A stretch of 64,000 nt of DNA from Prosthecobacter sp. (GTDB lineage: Bacteria; Verrucomicrobiota; Verrucomicrobiia; Verrucomicrobiales; Verrucomicrobiaceae): NCBI GenBank assembly GCA_021733925.1, contig JAIPJY010000011.1:62001-126000 (forward strand), given 5' to 3'. Made by a program: the position numbers and the translations under genes. Positions within the stretch are counted from its first letter, which is position 1. Each line of letters opens with the position of its first letter. Shown here one piece after another: positions 32,205-62,547 of this stretch. The notes beneath the pieces were generated by a model, which saw only the letters and a list, made by a program, of their open reading frames with translations, was not told the DNA's origin and made no database searches.

Positions 32205-32421
32205 ACTCTTCCGCATCGGGGTACTGGCGTCATCTCTCACGCTGCTGACAACCTATGTGATCCATTCGCAATCCAGAGGCAGAATAGCGTCTCCTCAAGC
32301 GGAGGAAAAATTCATGCTGCCAAGCTCCAAGGCTCTGACCCAGCCCGTCTTTTCAACTCGAAAGGTTGAGTCAACCACCCCGGCTGCCGATCCTTCCGCA
32401 CCTCCAGCGCAAAAGCCATGA
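32188..32421 (+). CDS. Small exported protein, probable paralogue of the 31363 lipoprotein
   Basis: 77 residues, exactly the length of the product at 31363. N-terminal membrane/signal segment (LFRIGVLASSLTLLTTYVI), then FMLPSSKALTQPVFSTRK in the position of the MPGSKS repeats, and a Pro-rich end PPAQKP. It lacks the lipobox cysteine. It ends with an ATGA overlap (32418-32421) onto the hydroxylase gene, mirroring the arrangement upstream. The relationship is my reading from layout and short motifs. Confidence 0.6.
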   Translation: MKTTSKLFRIGVLASSLTLLTTYVIHSQSRGRIASPQAEEKFMLPSSKALTQPVFSTRKVESTTPAADPSAPPAQKP

Positions 32422-33200
32422 ACCAGCCAGCCGTCATTCTCTCCACCGGCCTGAGCTTGCTCTTTCTCGTAGCGCTGTTCCGTCCGCTGGAGAAGCTGTT
32501 TCCTGCGCAGGAAGGACAGAAATTTTTCCGCCCGGCATTCTGGACGGACCTGTGTTTCCTCCTCGGCCAGTACTTGCTCTGGAGCGGTCTCGTATTCTGG
32601 GCGCTGAACCACTTCCGAGGCTGGCTGGATGGCATCGTGCCTGCTCATTTCCGGGCCGGTGTCGCGGCGCAGTCGTGGTGGCTGCAGGCCCTTGAGATGA
32701 TCGTGCTGAGTGACTTCCTCATCTACTGGGCTCATCGGCTGCAGCACACGGTTCCCTTCCTCTGGCGCTTTCACTCGATCCATCACAGTGCGGAGCATCT
32801 GGACTGGCTGGCGGCGCACCGGGAGCATCCGCTGGATACGATCTACACGGTGGGAATCATCAATCTGCCTGCGTTCATCCTGGGCTTTCCGCTGGAGACG
32901 CTGGCGGGGTTCCTCGCGTTTCGTGGACTGTGGGCCATCTTCATTCATTCGAACGTGCGCCTGCCGATCGGTCCGCTGGGCATGATCCTTGGCGCGCCGG
33001 CATTGCATCACTGGCACCATGACAAGGCACGAGACGCGGGAAATTATGCGAACATTTCGCCGTTCATGGACATCCTTTTTGGCACTTACCGCTGCCCCGA
33101 TCATGAGCCTGAGGCTTTCGGCATTCACGAGCCGATTTCCAAACACTACCTGGGGCAGCTCTGGCATCCGTTTCGCCGCCGGAAGAGGGATGCAGCATGA
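32418..33200 (+). CDS. Sterol desaturase / fatty acid hydroxylase family membrane protein
   Basis: 260 residues with four to five membrane helices and the full histidine set of the family: HRLQH, HSIHHS, HREHP and HHWHHDKARDAGNYAN. The histidines bind a di-iron centre that hydroxylates or desaturates lipids. PFMDILFGTY near the end is a family signature. It starts inside the stop of the small exported protein gene, so the two are probably co-translated. The substrate could be a sterol, hopanoid, carotenoid or fatty acid. Confidence 0.9.
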   Translation: MNQPAVILSTGLSLLFLVALFRPLEKLFPAQEGQKFFRPAFWTDLCFLLGQYLLWSGLVFWALNHFRGWLDGIVPAHFRAGVAAQSWWLQALEMIVLSDFLIYWAHRLQHTVPFLWRFHSIHHSAEHLDWLAAHREHPLDTIYTVGIINLPAFILGFPLETLAGFLAFRGLWAIFIHSNVRLPIGPLGMILGAPALHHWHHDKARDAGNYANISPFMDILFGTYRCPDHEPEAFGIHEPISKHYLGQLWHPFRRRKRDAA

Positions 33201-39650: not shown

Positions 39651-40190
39651 TTACTCTGACTTCTGCGGCACCTTCGCCAGCAAGCTTGTATCGTATCCCT
39701 GCTTCGCCATCCGCTCCAGAATGCCGCGATAAGTGGCTTCATCGAGCACCGGCTTGCGGCTGAGAACCCAGGCCATTTTGCGGTTGGGATAGCCAATCAC
39801 GCTCCACTGGTAGTCCTTGTCGAGGTCGATGATGAGATAAGGCACCCGCAGCGGCCAGACGAACTGCACGCGCCACTCGGCGTTGGTGGCTTTGTTGTGA
39901 ACCCAGGCCACACCTTTCCACTGCTCCAGCGGTGCATCGAGGCTGCCGCGACGGAACAGGAAGATGTTGTCCATCTTGCCGTCTGGGCGCAGCGCGTAGC
40001 GGTCCAGCGTGCCCACCTTGCCCTTTTCCAGGGAGTACGGAATGTTCGCAAAGACGTACCAGTCGCCCATGTAGTGCTTCAGATCGACGTGAGGCACCGT
40101 TAGCAGCGGAGCTTGTTTTATGGAACTGCAGGAGTTGAGGCTGAGCAACGAAAGCAGCAGACAGCCGAGGGCCGATGATCGAAAGGACAT
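39651..40190 (-). CDS. blc: Bacterial lipocalin lipoprotein (Blc-like)
   Basis: 179 residues from ATG 40190, which places a lipobox-type LLSLNSC about 20 residues in; a longer frame to 40241 is less suitable. The lipocalin start motif is HYMGDWYVFANIP (GDWY for the usual G-x-W), followed by DNIFLFRRGS, NAEWRVQFVWPLRVPYLIIDLDKDYQWSVIG and a C-terminal helix. Blc-type lipocalins are outer-membrane lipoproteins that bind lysophospholipids or fatty acids. A 57-base divergent region separates it from the DUF2071 gene. Confidence 0.9.
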   Translation of the reverse strand: MSFRSSALGCLLLSLLSLNSCSSIKQAPLLTVPHVDLKHYMGDWYVFANIPYSLEKGKVGTLDRYALRPDGKMDNIFLFRRGSLDAPLEQWKGVAWVHNKATNAEWRVQFVWPLRVPYLIIDLDKDYQWSVIGYPNRKMAWVLSRKPVLDEATYRGILERMAKQGYDTSLLAKVPQKSE

Positions 40191-40247
40191 GCCTGATGAA
40201 CGAATCCGAACGGTGCCTGGGCGCATATTCAGGCGTATCATCTCGGC

Positions 40248-40985
40248 ATGGCTTTCACACCCACACTCGAATCACGCCTCGCCGTCCGTGAGCAGCCATC
40301 GCGCTCGCATGTGATGCCGCAACGTTGGGAGAAGCTTGCCTTTTTACACTGGCGCTGGGATGTGGCGGAGATTCAGCGCACGCTACCTCCCGGATTGTTC
40401 GTGGATACATTTCAAGGCGACGCCTGGCTTGCCATCGTGCCGTTTTACATGCGCGGCATTCGTCCGCGTTTCTGCCCGCCTGTGCCCGGCATCAGCGACT
40501 TCCTTGAGCTCAATGTGCGCACCTACGTGCATGATGCGCAGGGTCGGCCAGGCGTGTGGTTTTACTCGCTGGATTGCAATCAACCTCTGGCGGTGTGGAC
40601 CGCGCGGAACTTCTTCCATCTGCCCTATCAGCATGCCCGAATGAGCGCAAAGGTCAGCGATGGCTGCATTGACTACCGCTGCCAGCGGCGCGGAGAGGTG
40701 GCCGAGTCACGCTTTCGCTATCGCATCGCCACAGATTCGCAGGCTGCGGTGCCAGGCTCACTCGCATTTTTCCTCGCCGAACGATATCTGCTCTTCTCCC
40801 AGACGCCACGCGGCATCCGCTGCGGTCAGGTGCATCACACGCCCTACCCGCTCGCAGAGGTTGAGCTGGAGACATGGGATGTGAATCCGCTGCTGCAGGC
40901 CGGATTCGCTGACCCACAGCGACAGCCTGATCACATTATTGGCTCGTCAGGTGTCAGGGTGGTGGTGTATCCGCTCACCGCATGA
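40248..40985 (+). CDS. DUF2071 (YqjF-like) protein
   Basis: 245 residues matching DUF2071: WEKLAFLHWRWDVAEIQRTLPPGL, DAWLAIVPFYMRGIRPR, FLELNVRTYVHD, GVWFYSLDCNQPLAVWTARNFF and YLLFSQTPRGIRCGQVHH. The fold resembles acetoacetate decarboxylase, but activity is unknown. It appears cytoplasmic, with no signal peptide. Its end overlaps the convergent gene at 40975 by 11 bases. Confidence 0.9.
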   Translation: MAFTPTLESRLAVREQPSRSHVMPQRWEKLAFLHWRWDVAEIQRTLPPGLFVDTFQGDAWLAIVPFYMRGIRPRFCPPVPGISDFLELNVRTYVHDAQGRPGVWFYSLDCNQPLAVWTARNFFHLPYQHARMSAKVSDGCIDYRCQRRGEVAESRFRYRIATDSQAAVPGSLAFFLAERYLLFSQTPRGIRCGQVHHTPYPLAEVELETWDVNPLLQAGFADPQRQPDHIIGSSGVRVVVYPLTA

Positions 40986-41562
40986 AGACCGAGATACCTT
41001 TGTCAACAAGGGGCTTGGCGGCGCGCAGCTTTTTGTCGGTGGATGAGAGCTGCTTGTCGCCTATGAGATACTCCGGAACGTTTTCCGTGGAAGGACTGAA
41101 ACGGATGCTCACTTTTCCATCGAGTTTGCCGCCTTCAAAGTTCGCATAGCCGCCGTAGTCCCAATCAAACCCGGCGATCTTGAAGGGCTTGCCGTTGATC
41201 TTCTCGATTTCTTCGACGGTCATTCCCGACTTGAGACCGTTGTCAAACTTCCAGGCCTTGCCCAGGACGCGGATGTCGAACACGACCTGCTTCTTGTCAG
41301 TGTCCGGATCCCACACGATCTCCAGTTCGCGATCCGTGCCCGCAAACAGTTTCGCGCCATCAATTTCCTCGCCTTCAGCGCCGGGAATTTTCTGCAGTTT
41401 GAGATTCTGCCTCCCATAGACACGCTCGATGTCCGTGGCGGTCATGCCCGGCTTGATCAGGCCCACGCGCTTCCCGAGCACGATCGAGTTGTTCTTGGCA
41501 TCGACCTCTTCGGCATGAAGAAAGGCGGTGAACAGCAGCAGGCAGGTGAGGATTCGGTGCAT
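40975..41562 (-). CDS. Exported protein with two BamE/SmpA-like repeats
   Basis: 195 residues with a signal peptide (ILTCLLLFTAFLHAEE). Two similar segments, VGLIKPGMTATDIERVYG and NGLKSGMTVEEIEKING, follow the GM-T-x-x-E-(I/V) pattern of SmpA/BamE-like domains, suggesting an internal duplication. The surrounding sequence is beta-rich. It is probably periplasmic. It overlaps the convergent DUF2071 gene by 11 bases. The repeat call is from pattern only. Confidence 0.7.
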   Translation of the reverse strand: MHRILTCLLLFTAFLHAEEVDAKNNSIVLGKRVGLIKPGMTATDIERVYGRQNLKLQKIPGAEGEEIDGAKLFAGTDRELEIVWDPDTDKKQVVFDIRVLGKAWKFDNGLKSGMTVEEIEKINGKPFKIAGFDWDYGGYANFEGGKLDGKVSIRFSPSTENVPEYLIGDKQLSSTDKKLRAAKPLVDKGISVFMR

Positions 41563-41606
41563 GCCTCAAATACATCGGTGGGAGGTTTCTAAATCAAGCG
41601 CCATTT

Positions 41607-41623
41607 CCCGCAGAGGCGGGACT
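41607..41623. repeat. REP-like palindrome in intergenic space
   Basis: CCCGC-AGAG-GCGGG followed by ACTT. It shares AGGCGGGACT with the element at 13875-13884. It sits between the exported BamE-like gene and the end of the glycosyltransferase operon. Confidence 0.4.
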
Positions 41624-41654
41624 TCCGGGTCAATGTGCCACACCGAGTGCGCGG

Positions 41655-42410
41655 TCAGACGGAGTCTTTGCCGCGCCGCCAGCAGCGCCACCAAAGCTGC
41701 TTGACGGTTTCGACCGCATTGATCAGACGGACGTGCAATCCCACCCAGGTGCCGGCGTAGTGATGGATCGCATAGGAGTTCAGCCTCCTGGCAAGCACGC
41801 GACGTTCGTCCTTAAATCGCATGGATGGAGGGGCCGGATAAAACGGTTCGTGCGAATGGATGATGATGTCGTCGTGATCGCGTGCGTAAGTCTCTGCCAG
41901 TTCGTCGAAGATCTGGATGGTCATGCGGATGACGTGAAAAGCATGCGGTTCGAAACGTCGACGCTGACGGAACCGGTCAGTCATGGCCTGCATGATTTGC
42001 AGCAACAACGGGTGACCCACAGGTGAGGCAATGAACGCATTGAGGATGAACGGACGTCCGCGCATGGGAATGCCGATGCCGCCATTCTCCACACCGATGG
42101 TGAGGCGGTCGTCCGAGAGGAGGGAGTCCAAAGGACGGAGCGCCTCGAAATCCACGTCTGTGTAAAGACCGCCGAAACAGTGAACGTAAGCGAGGCGAAT
42201 GAAGTCAATTTTGACGATTGGTGGAGAGAATCGGTGAAAGGCTTCCTCAAACTGCGGATAGTGTTCGTGGATCAGGCGATCATTGTCAGCATCGCTCCAA
42301 AGTCGATACTCCCAGCCAGGATGGTGCCTGATCCAGGAATCTTGGAATTCGAGCATGGACGTAGGAACGTCAGCGGTCTTCCAGGACTGATGGATAATGC
42401 GGGGGATCAT
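41655..42410 (-). CDS. GT32-type glycosyltransferase
   Basis: 251 residues from ATG 42410. The OCH1/DXD sugar-binding region is clear: IPRIIHQSWKT at the start, YRLWSDADN, IVKIDFIRLAYVHCFGGLYTDVDFEA with the DxD (DVD) that binds the nucleotide sugar metal, then NGGIGIPMRGRPF. Such enzymes add mannose, galactose or similar sugars to glycans or lipids, including inositol-phosphoceramide-type lipids in eukaryotes. It is the last gene of the six-gene operon and overlaps the upstream gene by ATGA. A longer frame to 42536 was rejected because it lies inside that gene. Confidence 0.88.
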   Translation of the reverse strand: MIPRIIHQSWKTADVPTSMLEFQDSWIRHHPGWEYRLWSDADNDRLIHEHYPQFEEAFHRFSPPIVKIDFIRLAYVHCFGGLYTDVDFEALRPLDSLLSDDRLTIGVENGGIGIPMRGRPFILNAFIASPVGHPLLLQIMQAMTDRFRQRRRFEPHAFHVIRMTIQIFDELAETYARDHDDIIIHSHEPFYPAPPSMRFKDERRVLARRLNSYAIHHYAGTWVGLHVRLINAVETVKQLWWRCWRRGKDSV

Positions 42411-43672
42411 GGTTTGAGCATGGGCTTCATGCGATGTTCGAGCCATTCCATGAGCGCATCGACCGACGGACGGCCGCCCACCAAGAGCTCGGTGCATGCT
42501 GCGGCCTTTTGATGGATAGCGACGTCCTCCAGACAACGTCGCAGCAGTGGCAGCGCACGTTTGACGTTGAACTGACGAATGTCGATACTCACACCGGCAC
42601 CAAATCGTTTCACGCGTTCGGCATTGTCAGGCTGGTCAAAAGCCATCGATACGATGAACTGGGGAAGTCCCGCTCTGAAGCACTGGGACAGAGTGCCAAT
42701 GCCACCGTGATGCACACAAGCACTGGCGCGCGGGAGCAGCACGCTGAATGGCGCGTACTGAACTGCCATAATGGATGCTGGCAGATTGTCGGGAATTTGA
42801 GCTGGATCACGACTTACAAATACCCCTCGGCAGCCGAGCTGAGAACAAAGCTCCACGGCTGTTTCAAAAAATGGTCTGGCGTGCACATGTCCTGTTCCAA
42901 GAGTGAACACGACCGGTTTGCTTCCTGCCTCCAGAAACGCCTCGAACTCGGGAGAGAGAGCGGTTTCAGTGCGGAGGTCCTCCAAAGGGAAGTCCCACTG
43001 AAAGTAATTCACCGGCCAGTCTGGCTGGGGTTTGCCGTACCATTCCGGGAAGAGCGCCAAGGTCCCGTCCGGCGACGACCACCAGTCACGCCGGAGGTTT
43101 TTTGGGGGCTTCACCTTGTGCAGCGCGCACTGTTTCCGTATCTGCGGCATGGCAAAACGGTCATAGGGTCGTATGGCCGAAAGGAAAAAGCTGCGTGCGA
43201 ACACTGGAAGCATTCTCAGCAAACGCCAGCAAGGGATGCAGCAGGAGATCTCGTGAGCGCTGATGAAAGCCAGGGGATGAAGCACCACGGAAACCAGAGG
43301 CAGGCCGTGCTTTTCCCGCAGCAGCGGCGCAACGAAGTTGTTCTGCGGTGAAATCAGCAAGTCTGGCAAACCTTCTCGCTCCACATAGGTGGCAAAGGCA
43401 TCCGTGTAACTGCCGATGCAGTCGCCAGCGTAGGCAAAGCCCGCCTGAAAGCCTTTGTGTGCATCCCACAGCATTGAGTTGCTCAAGAACTCTTCATACT
43501 TGGCGTTCACCATTGGCACGTATTCAAGGCCTGCTTTTTCAGCCAACAACTGGAAGGCATCGACCCAGATCATGGTCACTTGGTGCCCACGCTGCATGAG
43601 TTGCCGGCCCAGCCAGATGTAAGGCAGCACATCACCCGCAGTGCCGTGAGGAAGCAGGATGATTTTACTCAT
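42407..43672 (-). CDS. UGT/GT1-type glycosyltransferase, paralogue 3 of 3
   Basis: 421 residues from ATG 43672. N-terminal SKIILLPHGTAGDVLPYIWLG is the acceptor-domain start of sterol-glucosyltransferase-like GT1 enzymes; the donor site reads HHGGIGTLSQ...GLPQFIVSMAFDQPDNAERV. A block shared by all three paralogues (WWxSPDGxLxLFPxW then PQPDWPxN) lies in the middle. Overlaps: 8 bases with the upstream gene and 4 with the GT32 gene. The sequence is the most divergent of the three. Confidence 0.9.
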   Translation of the reverse strand: MSKIILLPHGTAGDVLPYIWLGRQLMQRGHQVTMIWVDAFQLLAEKAGLEYVPMVNAKYEEFLSNSMLWDAHKGFQAGFAYAGDCIGSYTDAFATYVEREGLPDLLISPQNNFVAPLLREKHGLPLVSVVLHPLAFISAHEISCCIPCWRLLRMLPVFARSFFLSAIRPYDRFAMPQIRKQCALHKVKPPKNLRRDWWSSPDGTLALFPEWYGKPQPDWPVNYFQWDFPLEDLRTETALSPEFEAFLEAGSKPVVFTLGTGHVHARPFFETAVELCSQLGCRGVFVSRDPAQIPDNLPASIMAVQYAPFSVLLPRASACVHHGGIGTLSQCFRAGLPQFIVSMAFDQPDNAERVKRFGAGVSIDIRQFNVKRALPLLRRCLEDVAIHQKAAACTELLVGGRPSVDALMEWLEHRMKPMLKP

Positions 43673-44942
43673 GCAGTTTTGGTTTTTCGCTGCCGGGGGT
43701 GATTTTTTCTTCAAGCCATGCCAGCAATGTGCCGATGTCTCTGGTGGCTCCGGTCCGGGCCATCATTTGCTTCGCGTTTTGCCGCATCTGCTGATCTGAA
43801 AGGCAGCGCTGCAGCAAGGGCAGGGCCTGCTCAGGTGAAAAGCGGCTGGAGCGGATGCTCAGGCCAACACCGAGGCGCTCCAGGCGCTCCGCGTTGTCGT
43901 GCTGGTCCAGCGCCATGTCCACCACGAGCTGCGGCACTCCAGCCGCCAGACTTTGCGCGATGGTGCCGATGCCTCCATGATGCACAAACGCGCTGGCATG
44001 TGGCAGCAGCGCGCTAAATGGGGCGTAGGCAGCCACGAAAATGGAGGGCGGGAGATCGGCGGGCACCTGCGCCGTTTTTAAAGTCAGAAAAACAGCGCGG
44101 CATCCGAGTTTTTCCGTCAACGAGACTGCGGTTTCAAAAAAACGTTGGGCGTGGTGGTGCCCCGTGCCCGGCGTGAAGACCACGGGGGGCTCACCTGCAT
44201 CCAAAAATGCTTTCAGTTCCGGATCCAGCGGGTGCTCTGCCGCCATGTCTTCCAGCGGGAAATCCCATTGCAGCAGGTTTTGCGGCCAGTCGGGCTGCGG
44301 CGCTGCAAACCAAGCGGGGAACAGGACGAGAACGCCGTCGGGCGAGTGCCACCACTGGCGCCAAAGACTCCACGGCTTGGTGACGCCATTTTTGGCACAG
44401 CATCTCCTCACCGCAAACAGAGCAAAGAAATCGAGCGGGTTTGGAAAAGCGAGAACCGCCTTGCGCAGCCATATGGGCAATATACGCAGCCAGCGAAACG
44501 CCGGAATAACCAGCGGCACATCGTGCGGACTCACGAACATCATCGGATAGAGATGCACGCTCACCAGTGGAAGGCGCCGCTTTTCGCGCAGCAGCCTGGC
44601 ACCGAAACAGATCATCGGTGCCAGCATCAAATCAGGCATGCCTTCCCTGGCGATGATGGACTCAACCGCTTCGACATAATCACAGGTGGCATGACCCGCG
44701 TGCTGATAGGCCACCTTTGAGCCATGGCCTGGCCGCCACAAATTCGGGTCCTGCAACATCTGCTCCGTGGCATCATTGCCAACGGCCACAAAATTCAGTC
44801 CGGCACTGATGACCCGCTTCTCGTGAATGCGCGCCGTGATCATGGTCACACGATGTCCCCGGCGCTTCAGCAACCGGCCAAGCCAGATAAATGGGAAAAC
44901 GCTGCCTGAAGTGCCAAAGGGCAGCAGCAGGACATGGCTCAT
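43665..44942 (-). CDS. UGT/GT1-type glycosyltransferase, paralogue 2 of 3
   Basis: 425 residues from ATG 44942. SHVLLLPFGTSGSVFPFIWLG at the start; donor motif HHGGIGTIAQ...GVPQLVVDMALDQHDNAERL; shared central block PQPDWPQNLLQWDFPLEDM. GT1 enzymes of this type transfer a hexose to a hydrophobic acceptor such as a sterol, hopanoid, diacylglycerol or antibiotic. Its start overlaps the preceding gene's stop as ATGA, and its end overlaps the next start by 8 bases (ATGAGTAA). Confidence 0.9.
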   Translation of the reverse strand: MSHVLLLPFGTSGSVFPFIWLGRLLKRRGHRVTMITARIHEKRVISAGLNFVAVGNDATEQMLQDPNLWRPGHGSKVAYQHAGHATCDYVEAVESIIAREGMPDLMLAPMICFGARLLREKRRLPLVSVHLYPMMFVSPHDVPLVIPAFRWLRILPIWLRKAVLAFPNPLDFFALFAVRRCCAKNGVTKPWSLWRQWWHSPDGVLVLFPAWFAAPQPDWPQNLLQWDFPLEDMAAEHPLDPELKAFLDAGEPPVVFTPGTGHHHAQRFFETAVSLTEKLGCRAVFLTLKTAQVPADLPPSIFVAAYAPFSALLPHASAFVHHGGIGTIAQSLAAGVPQLVVDMALDQHDNAERLERLGVGLSIRSSRFSPEQALPLLQRCLSDQQMRQNAKQMMARTGATRDIGTLLAWLEEKITPGSEKPKLHE

Positions 44943-46195
44943 GCGACGTGAATAGAGGGCTTCATGGTTGATTCGATCCACGTCAGCAGCAGTTCAAAGG
45001 AAGGTGCTTGACGCAGTTTGGCCGCACATCCTAGCGCAGCCTGACGAACCGTAACACCCTGCAGCAGTTGTTTCAACTCATGAGCCACGCGCTCGGGTGT
45101 GAACTGCCGCACGCTGAGACCTGTACCAGCGCCGAGGCGCTCCAAACGATTCGCATTGTCGGGCTGATCATGGGCCATCGCCATGATGAGTTGCGGCACA
45201 GCGGCGGCGAAGCCCTGTGACATGGTGCCGATGCCGCCGTGATGTACAAACACTGCGGCATATTTCAGCAGCGTACTGAACGGCGCGTATTCGACGGTGA
45301 GAATGTCCGCAGGCAGATTCGGTGGCACCTGTTTCGGCTCACGCGTGACAAAGACAGCACGACAGCCGATGCGCTTTACGGCTTCCGCAGCGACGGCAAA
45401 AAAGCGTGATGCCTGCACATTGGCGCTGCCAGGGGTGAAGACGACCGGACGCTCACCGGACGCGAGAAATGCCTGCAACTCTGGCTGAAGCGCCTGTTCA
45501 CTCGCGAGATCTTCAAGTGGGAAGGTCCATTGCAGCAGGTTCGCCGGCCAGTCGGGCTGCGGCTGCGCAAACCATGCGGGAAAGAGCGCAAGCACGCCAT
45601 CAGGCGAATCCCACCACTCACGCCACAAACTGCGCGGTGGTTTGACGCCGTTCGCTTCACAGATGCGGCGGACTTTGGGAAGCGCGAAGAGATCGACGGG
45701 GTTCGGCAGTGAGAAGACCAGCTTTTTGAACCATATCGGAAGCATGTTGAAAAGGCGCATGGCCGGATGCAGCAGCGGCGTCTCATGCACACTCAGAAAA
45801 ACTGCTGGCTGCAGATGCACGGTGATCAGCGGGATGCCGTGTTTTTCGCGGGCTAGACGCCCCGCGAATGCGGTGACAGGGGCCAGCATCAGATCGACCT
45901 TCCCGCAGCTTTCGATGGCCGCGAGATAGGGCACCACGGATTTGGCAGCGAAATCAAACACGACCTTGGTGCCAATGCCGGACTTCCAGATGCGCGGGTC
46001 GCGGATCATGGCCTCGAACTCGTCCCTATCCCCCAGCGAAATGAATTCGATGCCGGCTTTGCGCGCCTGCTCCTCAAACAGACATGCCGTGATCATTCTC
46101 ACACGATGTCCACGTGCCATGAGCTGTCGTCCCAGCCAGATGAAAGGGAACACATCGCCGGCACTGCCGAAGGGAAGCAGAAGGATCTCAGCCAT
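44939..46195 (-). CDS. UGT/GT1-type glycosyltransferase, paralogue 1 of 3
   Basis: 418 residues. AEILLLPFGSAGDVFPFIWLG; donor motif HHGGIGTMSQ...AVPQLIMAMAHDQPDNANRL; shared block PQPDWPANLLQWTFPLEDL. First of three tandem paralogues, which probably arose by tandem duplication. Its start (ATGGCTGA) overlaps the stop of the MFS gene by 8 bases, so translation is coupled to the putative lipid carrier. Confidence 0.9.
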   Translation of the reverse strand: MAEILLLPFGSAGDVFPFIWLGRQLMARGHRVRMITACLFEEQARKAGIEFISLGDRDEFEAMIRDPRIWKSGIGTKVVFDFAAKSVVPYLAAIESCGKVDLMLAPVTAFAGRLAREKHGIPLITVHLQPAVFLSVHETPLLHPAMRLFNMLPIWFKKLVFSLPNPVDLFALPKVRRICEANGVKPPRSLWREWWDSPDGVLALFPAWFAQPQPDWPANLLQWTFPLEDLASEQALQPELQAFLASGERPVVFTPGSANVQASRFFAVAAEAVKRIGCRAVFVTREPKQVPPNLPADILTVEYAPFSTLLKYAAVFVHHGGIGTMSQGFAAAVPQLIMAMAHDQPDNANRLERLGAGTGLSVRQFTPERVAHELKQLLQGVTVRQAALGCAAKLRQAPSFELLLTWIESTMKPSIHVA

Positions 46196-47477
46196 GCCTG
46201 CTATTCAGACTGCCGTGTACCCAGCGTTTCAGCAATGCAGGCAGCGCCTGCGGACGTGACATGGTCACATAAATGCCGCCGACCACCGCACTGGCTCCGC
46301 AAAACCAGAAGATGTCTCCCGGCGTCCAGCCCAGGCGGGTGTTCAGCTCTTTTTGCAGCACAGCGGCAGCGCTGATGCCCACCCATGACAGCCATGAGGC
46401 CGCACCCTGCACCGAGCCTTTGCGATCTGCTGGCGGCCTATGCTGCAGCACTGCGGCCAATGGCACGATGAACATGCCACCGCCGATGCCCAGCAGGGTG
46501 AGGCATACGGTGAATGCCGATTTGGAGATGTCTGCCAGCCCAAGTGCGAAACCCATCGCAGCCATGAGGAAGGCCCCGAGCGGGATGAGGCCATACTCCA
46601 CATGATCCCCGCTCAATTTCCCCGCGAGCATGCTGCCCGCCGCCATGCCGATGGCGAGTGCGACCTGCAGCGCGCTGTTTTCCATCGGCTTGATGTGCAG
46701 CACCTGCTCCGCATAGAGCACCAGATTCATCTGAATGAGCACGGCGATGAAAAAGAAACCCGTGTTGCCGAGATTCGCCCGCCACAGATCGCGATCCTTG
46801 CGCATCCATTTAAACTCGCGCCACAAGTCGCCGAGGAAGTTGAGGCGCAGCGGCTTGTCCGGGCTCGCGGCAGGCACTCGCGTGATGCCCAGGCTCATGA
46901 ACCAGCCGATGATTGCCAGAGCCAGCAGAATACCGCCCGCCCATGCCGGTTTGCCCGCAAAGCTTTCCGCCAGCCATGCTGCGGCCAGAGTGCCGAAGAT
47001 CGCCGCCAGGAAAGTGAGCATCTCGATCACGCCATTGGCCCAAGAGAGCTTGGCAGCGGGCACCACTTCTGGCAGCGAGCCGTACTTGGATGCCGCAAAG
47101 AACGCGCTATGCACGCCCATGAGGCAGATGCTGATGAGCTGAAGGGCCATCCTGCCGGAGGCCAGTGCATAGGTGGCGAAGATCATGATGCCGATCTCCA
47201 TCGTCTTCACGCCGATCATCACGTGCCGTTTGCTGAACCTGTCCGCCATCCAGCCGCCCAGCATGGAGAGCAGCAGAAATGGAATGGCAAAGTACATCCC
47301 GGAATCTGACACCAGAGCGTCGAGCTGCTCCTTTGGCAGCTTCTGCGCGATCACCAGATAGATGACCAGCCATTTGAGCACGTTGTCAGAAAAAGCCCCC
47401 TGAAACTGCGTGCCCATCAGGCTCCAGAAGCCGCGCTGCCAGCCGGATGTATTGGTCGGAGAGGAAGAATCGTTCAT
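46188..47477 (-). CDS. MFS transporter of the LplT-like type
   Basis: 429 residues from ATG 47477 with about 12 membrane helices. FWSLMGTQFQGAFSDNVLKWLVIYLV at the start matches the LplT/acyl-ACP-synthetase-linked MFS group (the TQFLGAFNDN pattern), and GGWMADRFSKRHVMIG is the MFS loop 2-3 motif. LplT flips lysophospholipids across the inner membrane, which suggests a lipid substrate here. It is the second gene of the operon, ATGA-coupled to the membrane protein before it and overlapping the first glycosyltransferase by 8 bases. A frame extending to 47714 is inside the preceding gene. Confidence 0.87.
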   Translation of the reverse strand: MNDSSSPTNTSGWQRGFWSLMGTQFQGAFSDNVLKWLVIYLVIAQKLPKEQLDALVSDSGMYFAIPFLLLSMLGGWMADRFSKRHVMIGVKTMEIGIMIFATYALASGRMALQLISICLMGVHSAFFAASKYGSLPEVVPAAKLSWANGVIEMLTFLAAIFGTLAAAWLAESFAGKPAWAGGILLALAIIGWFMSLGITRVPAASPDKPLRLNFLGDLWREFKWMRKDRDLWRANLGNTGFFFIAVLIQMNLVLYAEQVLHIKPMENSALQVALAIGMAAGSMLAGKLSGDHVEYGLIPLGAFLMAAMGFALGLADISKSAFTVCLTLLGIGGGMFIVPLAAVLQHRPPADRKGSVQGAASWLSWVGISAAAVLQKELNTRLGWTPGDIFWFCGASAVVGGIYVTMSRPQALPALLKRWVHGSLNSRHG

Positions 47478-48136
47478 GCGCGTTTGGCGGCGGCTTGTTC
47501 GGGCGTGGGGCAGATTTTCTTCAACGCGAAGTGCGTCGGCACAAAGACCACGAAAGTAAGCAGTGCAAGCCACGTCACCAGATAAAGTTCCGGGCTCATC
47601 CATGTCTGCGGCTGGGCATCGTCCATGCCGAAGACGTAGTTCACATTGCGCGGCAGATTGGGGTCTGAAAGACTGGCACCAGCCTTTGGCAGCCAAAAGT
47701 AGGCCACGAGACACAAGCCCGACGCCAGGGCCGTCCAGCCTTTGAGCGCACGTTTGTCATAGCCCAGCCTGAACACGAGGAAGGCCAGCAGGAACGGCAG
47801 CCAGCCATGGAAGAGCGACAAGCCGCGCAGGAACAGCGGCTTGGTGCCATCAAACATGTAGGCCGTCATACCCGTCATTTTGAAGCCGCAGAGCTGCACG
47901 CCATAATCCAAGCACCAAAGCGCCTGCGGCATCAGGATTCCCACAGCTGGCAGCGAGATGAGCAGCGGGCTTTCCAACCACACTCCGGCAAGCGTGAGCA
48001 GCAGGGCGATGTCGCAGAAATAGAGAAAGTTCGTCAGGCCGTAATGGTACCAATAAACAGGAATCAAAGCCGCCATGAAAGCGGTGTAGGCGAGCTTGAG
48101 CCAGCGCGGGATCGCGGAGGAAGTGGGTGGTTTCAT
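47474..48136 (-). CDS. Multi-pass membrane protein, operon leader
   Basis: 220 residues from ATG 48136 with about six membrane helices. Conserved-looking polar residues sit at or in helices: YWYHYGLTNFLYFCDIALLL, MPQALWCLDYGVQL and LSLFHGWLPFLLAFLVF, with His, Tyr and Asp at membrane faces that could line an active site. I recognise no named family. It heads the six-gene glycosyltransferase operon and is ATGA-coupled to the MFS gene, so a role in making or moving the glycosylated lipid is plausible. The upstream 84 bases to the PQQ-repeat gene are the likely promoter. Confidence 0.78.
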   Translation of the reverse strand: MKPPTSSAIPRWLKLAYTAFMAALIPVYWYHYGLTNFLYFCDIALLLTLAGVWLESPLLISLPAVGILMPQALWCLDYGVQLCGFKMTGMTAYMFDGTKPLFLRGLSLFHGWLPFLLAFLVFRLGYDKRALKGWTALASGLCLVAYFWLPKAGASLSDPNLPRNVNYVFGMDDAQPQTWMSPELYLVTWLALLTFVVFVPTHFALKKICPTPEQAAAKRA

Positions 48137-48220
48137 GCGAATGGACCTTCCCGCCATTTGTTCAGACTGACCAATCGACCCTCTGTAAGCTTGTATTGAG
48201 AAAATGCATGAACCGGCGCG

Positions 48221-49396
48221 CTACTGGACGGCCAGGCAGACCATGTCGCCAGCGGCATTCCGCACGTAGATGTGACCGTTGGCAAGCACCGGCACGCTCC
48301 AGCAACGTCCGGTGAGCACCGAGGTGCGGGAGAGAGGCTCAAATTTGGCCGCGCTGGCCTTGGCGATGATGAGTTCGCCCTTGGCGGTCAGGATGATGAG
48401 CTTGCCGTCGGCAGCCATGAGCGAGCAGAAACCGACGTCTGCGGCGCTCCATTTCTCGGTCCCTGTGGCGAAGTCGATGCACTTTAGGCTGGCGGATTTG
48501 TCTGCATCGCCATCGCTGCCATACAGATGGCCGTCGATCAGCACGCTGGAGTTGAACTGGTTTTTCATCACACGGCTGCGCCAGATCTCCTTGGGTTCGG
48601 CGGAGGCAAGATCAAGCAGGGCGCAGCCCTTGTTGTAGCCAGAGGAGATGAAAAGCTGGGTGCCGCTGAGGATGGGATCCGCCGCATTTACCCCGTAGCT
48701 GGTGGACCAGGTGTGCTCCCACAAAACGCTGCCATTGCTGGGATCGACGCCTTTGTAGGCGCGGCCAGAACTCAACACAACCTGCGCCTTGCCGTTTAAC
48801 GTGATCGGATAGGGCGTGCAGTAGCCTGAGTTGGCCTTGTCGCTGGTCCATACAGTTTTGCCCGTGGCCTTCTCGACCGCCGTGCCGGCTTTGCCGACGT
48901 TCACGATGAGAAGCTTGCCCTCGACGAGCGGTGACCCTGCGAAACCCCAGTCCGGAATGTCGGCCTCGGTTTCCTTCTGGATGTTTTTCTGCCAGACGAT
49001 CTTTCCTGTGGCTGCCTCAAAACACATCAGATCTCCCCAGCGGCTCAAATGGTACGCCTTACCGTCTTCAATCGTCGGCGTGGCCGAGGTGCCGCCTTCG
49101 TAATACTTGTCCCCCAGATCGGCGGCGTAAGCGTGCTTCCACACCTGCTTGCCGCTCACGGCGTCGAAGCAGAAGACCGTGTCCTTGCCATCCGCATGCC
49201 CCGTGGTGTACACACGACCGGCAGCCACGGTGAAGGAGGCAAAGCCGATGCCAATCTGTGCTTCCCAGACTTTTTTGACCGTCGTTCCGGCCAGTTTCTC
49301 ATTCGAAATGCCGTCATGATTGGGTCCGCGCCAGATCGGCCAGTCGGCGGCTTGCAGGGTGGTGGCGGCAGCAAGGAGAAGGAGAGCGAGTTTCAT
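48221..49396 (-). CDS. PQQ-repeat beta-propeller protein (BamB-like)
   Basis: 391 residues from ATG 49396, with a signal peptide (LALLLLAAATTLQAAD) directly followed by WPIWRGPNHDGIS, the usual N-terminus of planctomycete/verrucomicrobial PQQ-like proteins. Several PQQ-type blades carry A/TGK.VW patterns (VSGKQVWK, ATGKIVWQ, ATGKTVWT, GTEKWSA). No catalytic calcium or PQQ site is evident, so it is more likely a structural propeller than a dehydrogenase. The true BamB role needs Bam partners, and none are adjacent. Confidence 0.85.
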   Translation of the reverse strand: MKLALLLLAAATTLQAADWPIWRGPNHDGISNEKLAGTTVKKVWEAQIGIGFASFTVAAGRVYTTGHADGKDTVFCFDAVSGKQVWKHAYAADLGDKYYEGGTSATPTIEDGKAYHLSRWGDLMCFEAATGKIVWQKNIQKETEADIPDWGFAGSPLVEGKLLIVNVGKAGTAVEKATGKTVWTSDKANSGYCTPYPITLNGKAQVVLSSGRAYKGVDPSNGSVLWEHTWSTSYGVNAADPILSGTQLFISSGYNKGCALLDLASAEPKEIWRSRVMKNQFNSSVLIDGHLYGSDGDADKSASLKCIDFATGTEKWSAADVGFCSLMAADGKLIILTAKGELIIAKASAAKFEPLSRTSVLTGRCWSVPVLANGHIYVRNAAGDMVCLAVQ

Positions 49397-49526
49397 GCGC
49401 AGGAATGGAGCGGGAACGGCCTGAAATGGCAAGCTTGATCTCGATTGCGCCCCACTGTTCCATTCCTGCGCTGGAAGTGCTGTTTGCACTCGCCGTCCGC
49501 CTGTTCATGTGCTTTTTCAACCGCCC

Positions 49527-61857: not shown

Positions 61858-62547
61858 ATGATGCAGGCAATGCCTCCCGCCTTTCATCCCTACGGCCCAT
61901 CCCACAAGGCGGTGCTCGCCATCACGCTGGCTCTGTTCATCGTGATGCTGCTGCTCTCCCGCACCCGCTGGGCGAAGCTCTCGCAGCGTGTGCTGGGAAC
62001 CACTCTACTGGCTTTGTATCCGGTCGGCATGGTGGTGCATGCGTGGTACGGTTCGCTCACTGTGCTGACGGCACTGCCGTTGCAGTTCTGTGACATCGCC
62101 ACACTGGCAGGCGGCATCGCTCTCTGGACGCGCCGCCCGTTTTTTTGCGAGGTGGTCTATTTTTTTGGCATCGCGGGCACCCTTCAGGGGCTGCTGACAC
62201 CCGCACTGGTGTATGAGTTTCCGGATCCGCGTTTCATTTTGTTTTTCATCATGCACGGCGGTGTGCCGATCACGGCGTTCTATGTCGTCACCGCCATGGG
62301 TGTGAGCCCGCGCCCCGGAGCCGTGCTGCGCATCTTGACCTTTTCCGTCGCCTGGTATGCCGTGATCGCTGTCGTGAACTACGCTCTGGGCGCAAACTAC
62401 GCTTTTCAATGCTCAAAACCAGTGCAAGCCAGCCTGTTTGACCAGCTCGGGCCATGGCCTTGGTACAATTTCAGCACAATCGGCCTTGGCCTCGTATTTT
62501 ACACCCTTCTTTACCTCCCCTTTGCCTTCCTTAAGGCCAGAGACTGA
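61858..62547 (+). CDS. TIGR02206/YwaF-type integral membrane protein
   Basis: 229 residues with six to seven helices. ALPLQFCDIATLAGGIALWT, EVVYFFGIAGTLQGLLTPAL, RFILFFIMHGGVPITAFYVV and NYALGANYAFQCSKP are the conserved blocks of this family, with His and Asp residues inside membrane segments. Function unknown. An ATG at 61870 (MPPAFHPYG) is an alternative start. It precedes speA by 120 bases. Confidence 0.88.
   Translation: MMQAMPPAFHPYGPSHKAVLAITLALFIVMLLLSRTRWAKLSQRVLGTTLLALYPVGMVVHAWYGSLTVLTALPLQFCDIATLAGGIALWTRRPFFCEVVYFFGIAGTLQGLLTPALVYEFPDPRFILFFIMHGGVPITAFYVVTAMGVSPRPGAVLRILTFSVAWYAVIAVVNYALGANYAFQCSKPVQASLFDQLGPWPWYNFSTIGLGLVFYTLLYLPFAFLKARD

Follow-up and report, generated by a model that had tools for sequence, protein, structure and literature searches.

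The described systems closest to the locus considered here are the rhlA–rhlB–rhlC gene clusters, the LplT–Aas system, the transacylases of the TMEM164 (ATGY) superfamily and, at low similarity, the glycosyltransferases GtfA and GtfD and sterol glucosyltransferase. RhlB has been reported to add rhamnose to a hydroxyacyl lipid (PMC2804600), and a related gene pair in Pantoea to yield a hexose lipid (PMC4863597). Escherichia coli LplT is described as flipping lysophospholipids and forming a complex with Aas, and fused forms are reported to exist (PMC11416262). TMEM164 is reported to be cysteine-dependent. Human TMEM164 has only recently been assigned as the gene of a long-known CoA-independent transacylase activity (PMC11592020). 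We have analysed an operon of six genes, g1–g6 (positions 41655–48136, minus strand), in a stretch of 64,000 nucleotides from Prosthecobacter sp., hereafter the window, which is part of contig 115 in a 7.3-million-base assembly (127 contigs, 93% complete). The operon places a candidate TMEM164-type membrane protein and an LplT-like transporter directly ahead of three RhlB-like glycosyltransferases of family 1 (GT1) and one of the GT32 type. With slightly less than even confidence, we read it as a lysolipid-remodelling pair (g1–g2) that has gained an array of RhlB-like glycolipid synthases, with g6 extending the glycan.

The open reading frames of all six genes are present in the sequence: g1 encodes the membrane protein, g2 a transporter of the major facilitator superfamily (MFS), g3, g4 and g5 the GT1 enzymes and g6 the GT32-type enzyme. 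Five overlaps join them, at 47474–47477 (4 bases), 46188–46195 (8), 44939–44942 (4), 43665–43672 (8) and 42407–42410 (4), each with ATG as the start codon; longer in-frame starts are also present upstream (e.g. g1 from 48157). Pfam assigns five of the six genes to a class, with MFS_1 in g2, EryCIII-like_C, Glyco_transf_28 and UDPGT in g3–g5, and Gly_transf_sug (PF04488) in g6. Promoter-like sites in 41400–48500 number three against 1.9 in shuffled sequence, all on the plus strand, and terminator-like sites seven against 7.3; because these counts lie near the shuffled numbers, the promoter was not located.

A genome search with g4, g2, g1 and g6 covered 115 genomes, comprising the window's own and its relatives, of which 48 (own included) belong to the genus. 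The LplT-like MFS gene is followed directly by a GT1 gene in 20 of these 48 (G001, G002, G004, G008, G011, G012, G014, G016, G020, G022, G025, G026, G027, G029, G030, G031, G032, G036, G047 and the window's own), and g1 stands ahead of them in 19 of the 20 (G025 has a fragment and G026 no match). The array varies, and the six genes seen here represent one of its versions. One GT1 copy is present in eight operons, three in five, four in five and five in G011, while in G036 the GT1 array is divided between two contigs, with fragments; a close relative of g6 (E 1e-70 or better) occurs in seven of the 20 and is doubled in two of those. We surveyed the overlaps in the 20 fetched operon loci, taking as the start the start codon nearest to the homologous position. 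The g1/g2 overlap is 4 bases in all 16 loci in which both genes were picked, and that of g2/g3 is 8 bases in 15 of 19, the other four having gaps of 46–75 bases. All six genes are under purifying selection: the pairwise ratio of nonsynonymous to synonymous substitution rates (dN/dS) against related genes is 0.06–0.17 wherever dS could be estimated, dS being saturated in three of six g5 pairs and one of two g6 pairs. An earlier note on this DNA had described six genes with five overlaps of 4 or 8 bases, very likely translated as one unit, and had taken an order confined to a single strain as an outcome that would refute its reading. The layout is as described, its overlaps recur across the genus and the order extends well beyond one strain.

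The GT1 enzymes g3 (44939..46195), g4 (43665..44942) and g5 (42407..43672), all on the minus strand, are 47–53% identical to one another. Their likeness to the GT1 of a plasmid cluster of Burkholderia glumae is 33–36% identity (203–229 bits, near full length), g3 being 36% identical to it over 365 amino acids. The other GT1 of the window's genome (contig 5) scores only 41–49 bits against g3–g5. In the B. glumae cluster the order is alpha/beta hydrolase, GT1, DHA2 MFS, GT2, outer-membrane and HlyD genes; its reference record does not name rhlB, and the RhlB type is taken from the make-up of the cluster, which matches that reported for the rhlA–rhlB–rhlC clusters of B. thailandensis with their transport genes (PMC2804600). 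We call g3–g5 RhlB-like because they are closest to the GT1 of a cluster with this make-up. The resemblance points to an acyl-lipid acceptor and lends no special support to a sterol or hopanoid. As in the RhlA–RhlB–RhlC clusters, an RhlB-like GT1 is grouped with an MFS gene and with a further glycosyltransferase from a different family. The operon differs in having three GT1 paralogues, GT32 instead of GT2, an LplT-type instead of a DHA2-type MFS and the extra gene g1, and in that RhlA was found neither in the window nor in the fetched loci. An alpha/beta hydrolase is present in four of the 20 genus operon loci; its identification as RhlA was rejected by BLAST. On plasmid pCMU01 of Methylorubrum extorquens CM4 (L225 3688–6248) the gene of an alpha/beta hydrolase shares 4 bases with that of an RhlB-like GT1, which is 37–42% identical to g3–g5; by BLAST this hydrolase is likewise not RhlA.

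A GT1 tree was built from 70 rows, three of 73 having been excluded (two G036 fragments and one truncated G060 row) and G015x having been cut to its first 430 residues. In this tree g3, an ancestral-type copy, and the single-copy genes lie apart from a group (32 rows, support 100) made up of array copies, g4 and g5 among them, the latter in a starred clade of eight rows. The Asp of the GSxGDVxP motif, residue 14 in g3 and g5, is Ser in 13 rows (g4 and 12 others) and is kept in the other 57. Exactly one Ser14 copy is found in each of the 12 multi-copy arrays (one G036 fragment lacks the position), and the remaining Ser14 row is a solitary gene from G015. In g4 the Ser14 codon lies at 44901..44903 (minus strand). 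The Ser14 rows are not shown to form one clade: the quick-method tree needs two changes, and an Asp row on a long branch (G011_4of5) falls inside. A second change goes with Ser14, next to the DQ motif, where His342 of the g3-type rows has become Leu in 12 of the 13. The dN/dS of g4 against four relatives is 0.13–0.14.

Asp14 of g3 aligns with Asp13 of GtfD and with the Asp of the corresponding motif in GtfA-type chains, and in the g3–g5 profile the motif Asp aligns with that of yeast sterol glucosyltransferase. We take this Asp to be the general base in all three kinds of enzyme. Likeness to them extends to the HHGGxGT/DQ stretch as well as the N-terminal GSxGDVxP-like motif, but overall similarity is low, and in g4 the Asp predicted to be catalytic is replaced by Ser. 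Two readings of g4 suggest themselves: catalysis with a different base, or a partner role without catalysis. In Pseudomonas aeruginosa RhlB, His263 is reported to be essential, with the active site near the nucleotide sugar (PMC13185158). Three sequential GT1 transferases had been proposed in the earlier note; the three paralogues are there, and Ser14 of g4 makes a sequence of three doubtful.

The first gene, g1 (47474..48136, minus strand), matches no Pfam family. We consider its product a candidate lipid transacylase of the TMEM164 (ATGY) superfamily, from its predicted TMEM164-like fold, its invariant Cys and His residues and a profile–profile score. Cys41 (codon 48014..48016, minus strand) and His110 (47807..47809, minus strand) are invariant in an alignment of 38 rows (14 of 52 were excluded, a stop codon being present in one of these) and align with Cys67 and His122, which are invariant in 15 rows of bacterial TMEM164; they are candidate catalytic residues. 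What the earlier note had called simply a membrane protein is one, with an identity that can now be proposed. The fold is probably that of TMEM164 and LhaT, and the Cys and His columns coincide; the g1 family differs in being separate, in lacking a Pfam model, in scoring below the cut-off of the TMEM164 model and in its LplT-like operon partner. The VIA-align comparison had no positive control, and a single-sequence model of the window's own TMEM164 protein has a predicted local distance difference test (pLDDT) score of 45.3. That clear member of the TMEM164 family (PF14808, E 5.5e-41) is encoded at 61858–62547 on the plus strand, some 14 kb from the operon.

Several results weigh against the assignment of g1, for which the sequence signal is modest. 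The profile–profile comparison with TMEM164 (hhalign) gives a probability of 55–74%. The Pfam TMEM164 model (PF14808, cut-off 25 bits) is touched by only two of the 38 g1 relatives, below the cut-off (best E 0.002), and a single relative scored individually reaches 14.2 bits; other families are touched as weakly, for example PAP2_3 by two of 18 relatives (best 0.012). Foldseek with g1 found nothing below E 0.001 in the PDB, and hmmsearch of the PDB with the 38-row profile found none. The Asp that follows the Cys is replaced by Ser in five of the 15 TMEM164 rows, and His5, invariant in those rows, falls outside the aligned part. The weak matches of g1 relatives to PAP2_3, PsbJ, DUF3935 and other Pfam families were taken as chance. 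Another sequence search of the PDB with the g1 profile gave one row at chance level (E 0.098), and Foldseek against viral models gave nothing under E 0.001, the top row being a nucleopolyhedrovirus protein (E 0.38, probability 0.90, template-modelling score 0.47).

The partner of g1, g2 (46188..47477, minus strand; MFS_1, 95 bits), is an LplT-like transporter. Its best NCBIfam match is to the transporter (N-terminal) part of the Aas-fusion model PRK08633 (acyl-ACP–phospholipid acyltransferase), at 316 bits; a PDB sequence search with g2 gave no match. The LplT equivalog PRK11195 is only the third-best NCBIfam match, with 127 bits against a cut-off of 297. The earlier identification of g2 as LplT-like stands in that a carrier of the lysolipid type is indicated, and falls short at this cut-off.

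We followed the pair through a scan of public genomes, which gave 327 g1 relatives; the best 80, mostly from Verrucomicrobia with 15 of Hymenobacter type, were kept and 78 loci were mapped (no g1 was picked in L108 and L148). Genes were counted as one run if they lay on the same strand with gaps of less than 150 bases; neighbours may be missed where a contig ends. In 38 of the 78 loci the run of g1 includes an LplT-like or Aas-type gene; the 40 that lack an LplT-like gene there, including all 15 of the Hymenobacter type, weigh against our reading. The run also holds a PlsC-type acyltransferase in eight loci, a PAP2/PDCT-like gene in nine and a GT1 in 14. In five loci the run has a gene closest to the Aas fusion, and three of these are full fusions of 1140–1144 residues. 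One example of each neighbour gave the domains PAP2_C and AtPDCT1_2, Acyltransferase, and, in the fusion, MFS, acyltransferase and AMP-binding. Linkage or fusion to an Aas- or PlsC-type acyltransferase, as in the LplT–Aas system, is therefore seen in relatives, but the window's operon has no acyltransferase, and its g2 is partnered with a TMEM164-like protein and glycosyltransferases. Elsewhere, the window's genome (L216 1119–3602) encodes a fusion of an LplT-like MFS with a PlsC-type acyltransferase, in which no AMP-binding domain was found. A transacylase that leaves a lysolipid, beside a lysolipid carrier, makes a coherent pair, in which the two may be coupled. In four of the 15 Hymenobacter-type loci (L149, L156, L166 and L171) a gene of the BioF/Kbl/serine-palmitoyltransferase type lies 2.7–3.7 kb downstream of the g1 relative, and 9.4 kb away in a fifth, with all NCBIfam models below cut-off; a possible link to sphingolipids is only a lead.

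The last gene, g6 (41655..42410, minus strand), carries PF04488 (55.5 bits, cut-off 23) and a DVD form of the DxD motif in the sequence YTDVDF. PF04488 presumably corresponds to CAZy family GT32, and the earlier class of DxD hexosyltransferase is borne out.

In the scheme that we infer, which covers acyl transfer, transport and its direction, acceptor, sugars, product and the partnership of g4, Cys41 and His110 of g1 would form an active site in the membrane that moves an acyl chain between lipids independently of CoA and leaves a lysolipid, which g2 would carry across the inner membrane. In some relatives a PlsC- or Aas-type acyltransferase beside or fused to g2 would re-acylate it; in the window's genome the MFS–PlsC fusion encoded elsewhere could do so. 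Within the genus a row of RhlB-like GT1 enzymes would have been joined to this pair. Of these, g3 would be a glycolipid synthase of the ancestral type that starts the glycan by adding a sugar to an acyl lipid, g4 and g5 would be later copies acting on its product or on another acceptor, and g6 would add a hexose. Lacking the usual Asp, g4 may use a different base or serve as a non-catalytic partner of g3 or g5. In a bolder version, which strikes us as unlikely, the TMEM164-type transacylase, the lysolipid flippase and the RhlB-like glycosyltransferases would work as a single machine, with an obligate Asp-less partner that regulates, presents the substrate or catalyses with a changed base.

Part of the evidence against the proposed scheme concerns the join between its halves. 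Other genera, and another family of the same order, have the g1–g2 pair but no GT1 with it, g1 and g2 are themselves separate in G013 and G028, and g3-type GT1 genes are solitary in many genomes; in G015 and G028 (L067 and L069) a GT1 sits among the usual neighbours without g1–g2. Around solitary GT1 genes no recurrent partner was seen on reading 16 short loci from phylum members; in 20 loci from relatives, neighbours recurred only between close kin, except that L067 and L069 have those typical of the operon. A tblastn search for an RhlA-like gene, made in the window and 140 loci (L036–L175) but not in the rest of the genome, gave no match at E 1e-3. A PDCT-like gene, which lies just upstream of g1/g2 in six genus genomes (G008, G011, G014, G016, G026 and G036), has no match in the window's genome. 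Together with array sizes that range from one to five while g1 and g2 remain single, the separate occurrence of the halves would suit two independent modules on one transcript, housekeeping lysophospholipid remodelling by g1–g2 and a glycosyltransferase array for an unrelated surface glycolipid or other glycan. The recurrence of the g1/g2 and g2/g3 overlaps across the genus exceeds what a loose neighbourhood would give, however, and the GT1 enzymes are nearest a lipid-glycosylating type; we regard independent modules as possible but rather doubtful.

The remaining explanations are less probable. LhaT (YpjA) is reported to share the ATGY superfamily with TMEM164 (PMC12345273), and lipoprotein maturation by Lnt is named as a source of lysophosphatidylethanolamine (PMC11416262), so that g1 might be a lipoprotein N-acyltransferase like LhaT, with g2 returning the lysolipid by-product as LplT does after Lnt. 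We think this improbable, as the genome's Lnt scores over its curated cut-off (269.6 bits against 132.9) and DUF1405 (PF07187), the domain of LhaT, is found in none of 145 phylum genomes, own included; DUF1405 was also rejected as the family of g1. A similarly small chance attaches to the idea that a sterol, a hopanoid or some other polycyclic lipid is glycosylated stepwise. Yeast sterol glucosyltransferase is within the three best PDB profile matches (6.4e-22), and one partial match to a squalene-hopene-cyclase N-domain occurs on contig 104 (57 bits, cut-off 26.2, positions 1–144 of 291). This sole cyclase-type match is on a different contig from the operon, however, and the GT1 enzymes score 229–260 bits against RhlB-type enzymes compared with about 60 bits against any PDB GT1. 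The earlier proposal of stepwise lipid glycosylation with transport thus retains its lipid theme and its lysolipid-type carrier; its sterol and hopanoid options gain no special support from RhlB-like enzymes. It is very improbable that the GT1 enzymes act on a small molecule, such as a secondary metabolite or xenobiotic, with g2 as its exporter: NCBIfam macrolide-type models match the GT1 enzymes and efflux-type models g2, all below cut-off, but g2 is closest to lipid-transport models and enzymes of the lipid type recur nearby. The first 70 residues of each predicted gene in the window showed neither a polyketide nor a peptide synthase, which is weak evidence.

Returning to the lysolipid-remodelling pair with its added array, a literature search of partial coverage, reaching few subscription papers, found no description of this combination of genes, in line with the earlier note, to which no such system was known, and nothing linking TMEM164 with LplT. 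Taken singly, the components are variations on known types; novelty, as far as it could be tested, lies in their combination and in the conserved Ser14 copy. A g1 family with a likely TMEM164 fold and motif, no Pfam model and often an adjoining carrier of the lysolipid type would make transacylase chemistry testable in bacteria, and its neighbourhood would suggest that enzymes of the TMEM164 type require a return path for the lysolipid. The Ser14 glycosyltransferase, occurring once per array, offers a ready test of GT1 function without the Asp or as a silent partner, and the product of the operon would be a lipid to seek in Verrucomicrobia.

The surroundings of the operon also recur. A BamB/PQQ-type beta-propeller protein is encoded 84 bases upstream of g1 on the same strand (48221–49489, minus strand; PQQ_2, 113.5 bits), with relatives in nine of the 20 fetched operon loci. 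On the 3' side, a small protein with a sub-threshold BamE match (40975–41562, minus strand) has relatives in eight of these loci and beside the two GT1 genes without g1–g2 in L067 and L069. A lipocalin of the Blc type near the operon (39651–40241, minus strand; Lipocalin_2, 129 bits, with the Blc model below cut-off) recurs in ten of the 20; binding of lysophosphatidylethanolamines has been reported for E. coli Blc (PMC8177097), and the lipocalin is consistent with the lysolipid theme. Further away, a protein of the fatty acid hydroxylase type is encoded at 32418–33200 on the plus strand (PF04116, 112 bits); a hydroxylated lipid acceptor would suit RhlB-like enzymes.

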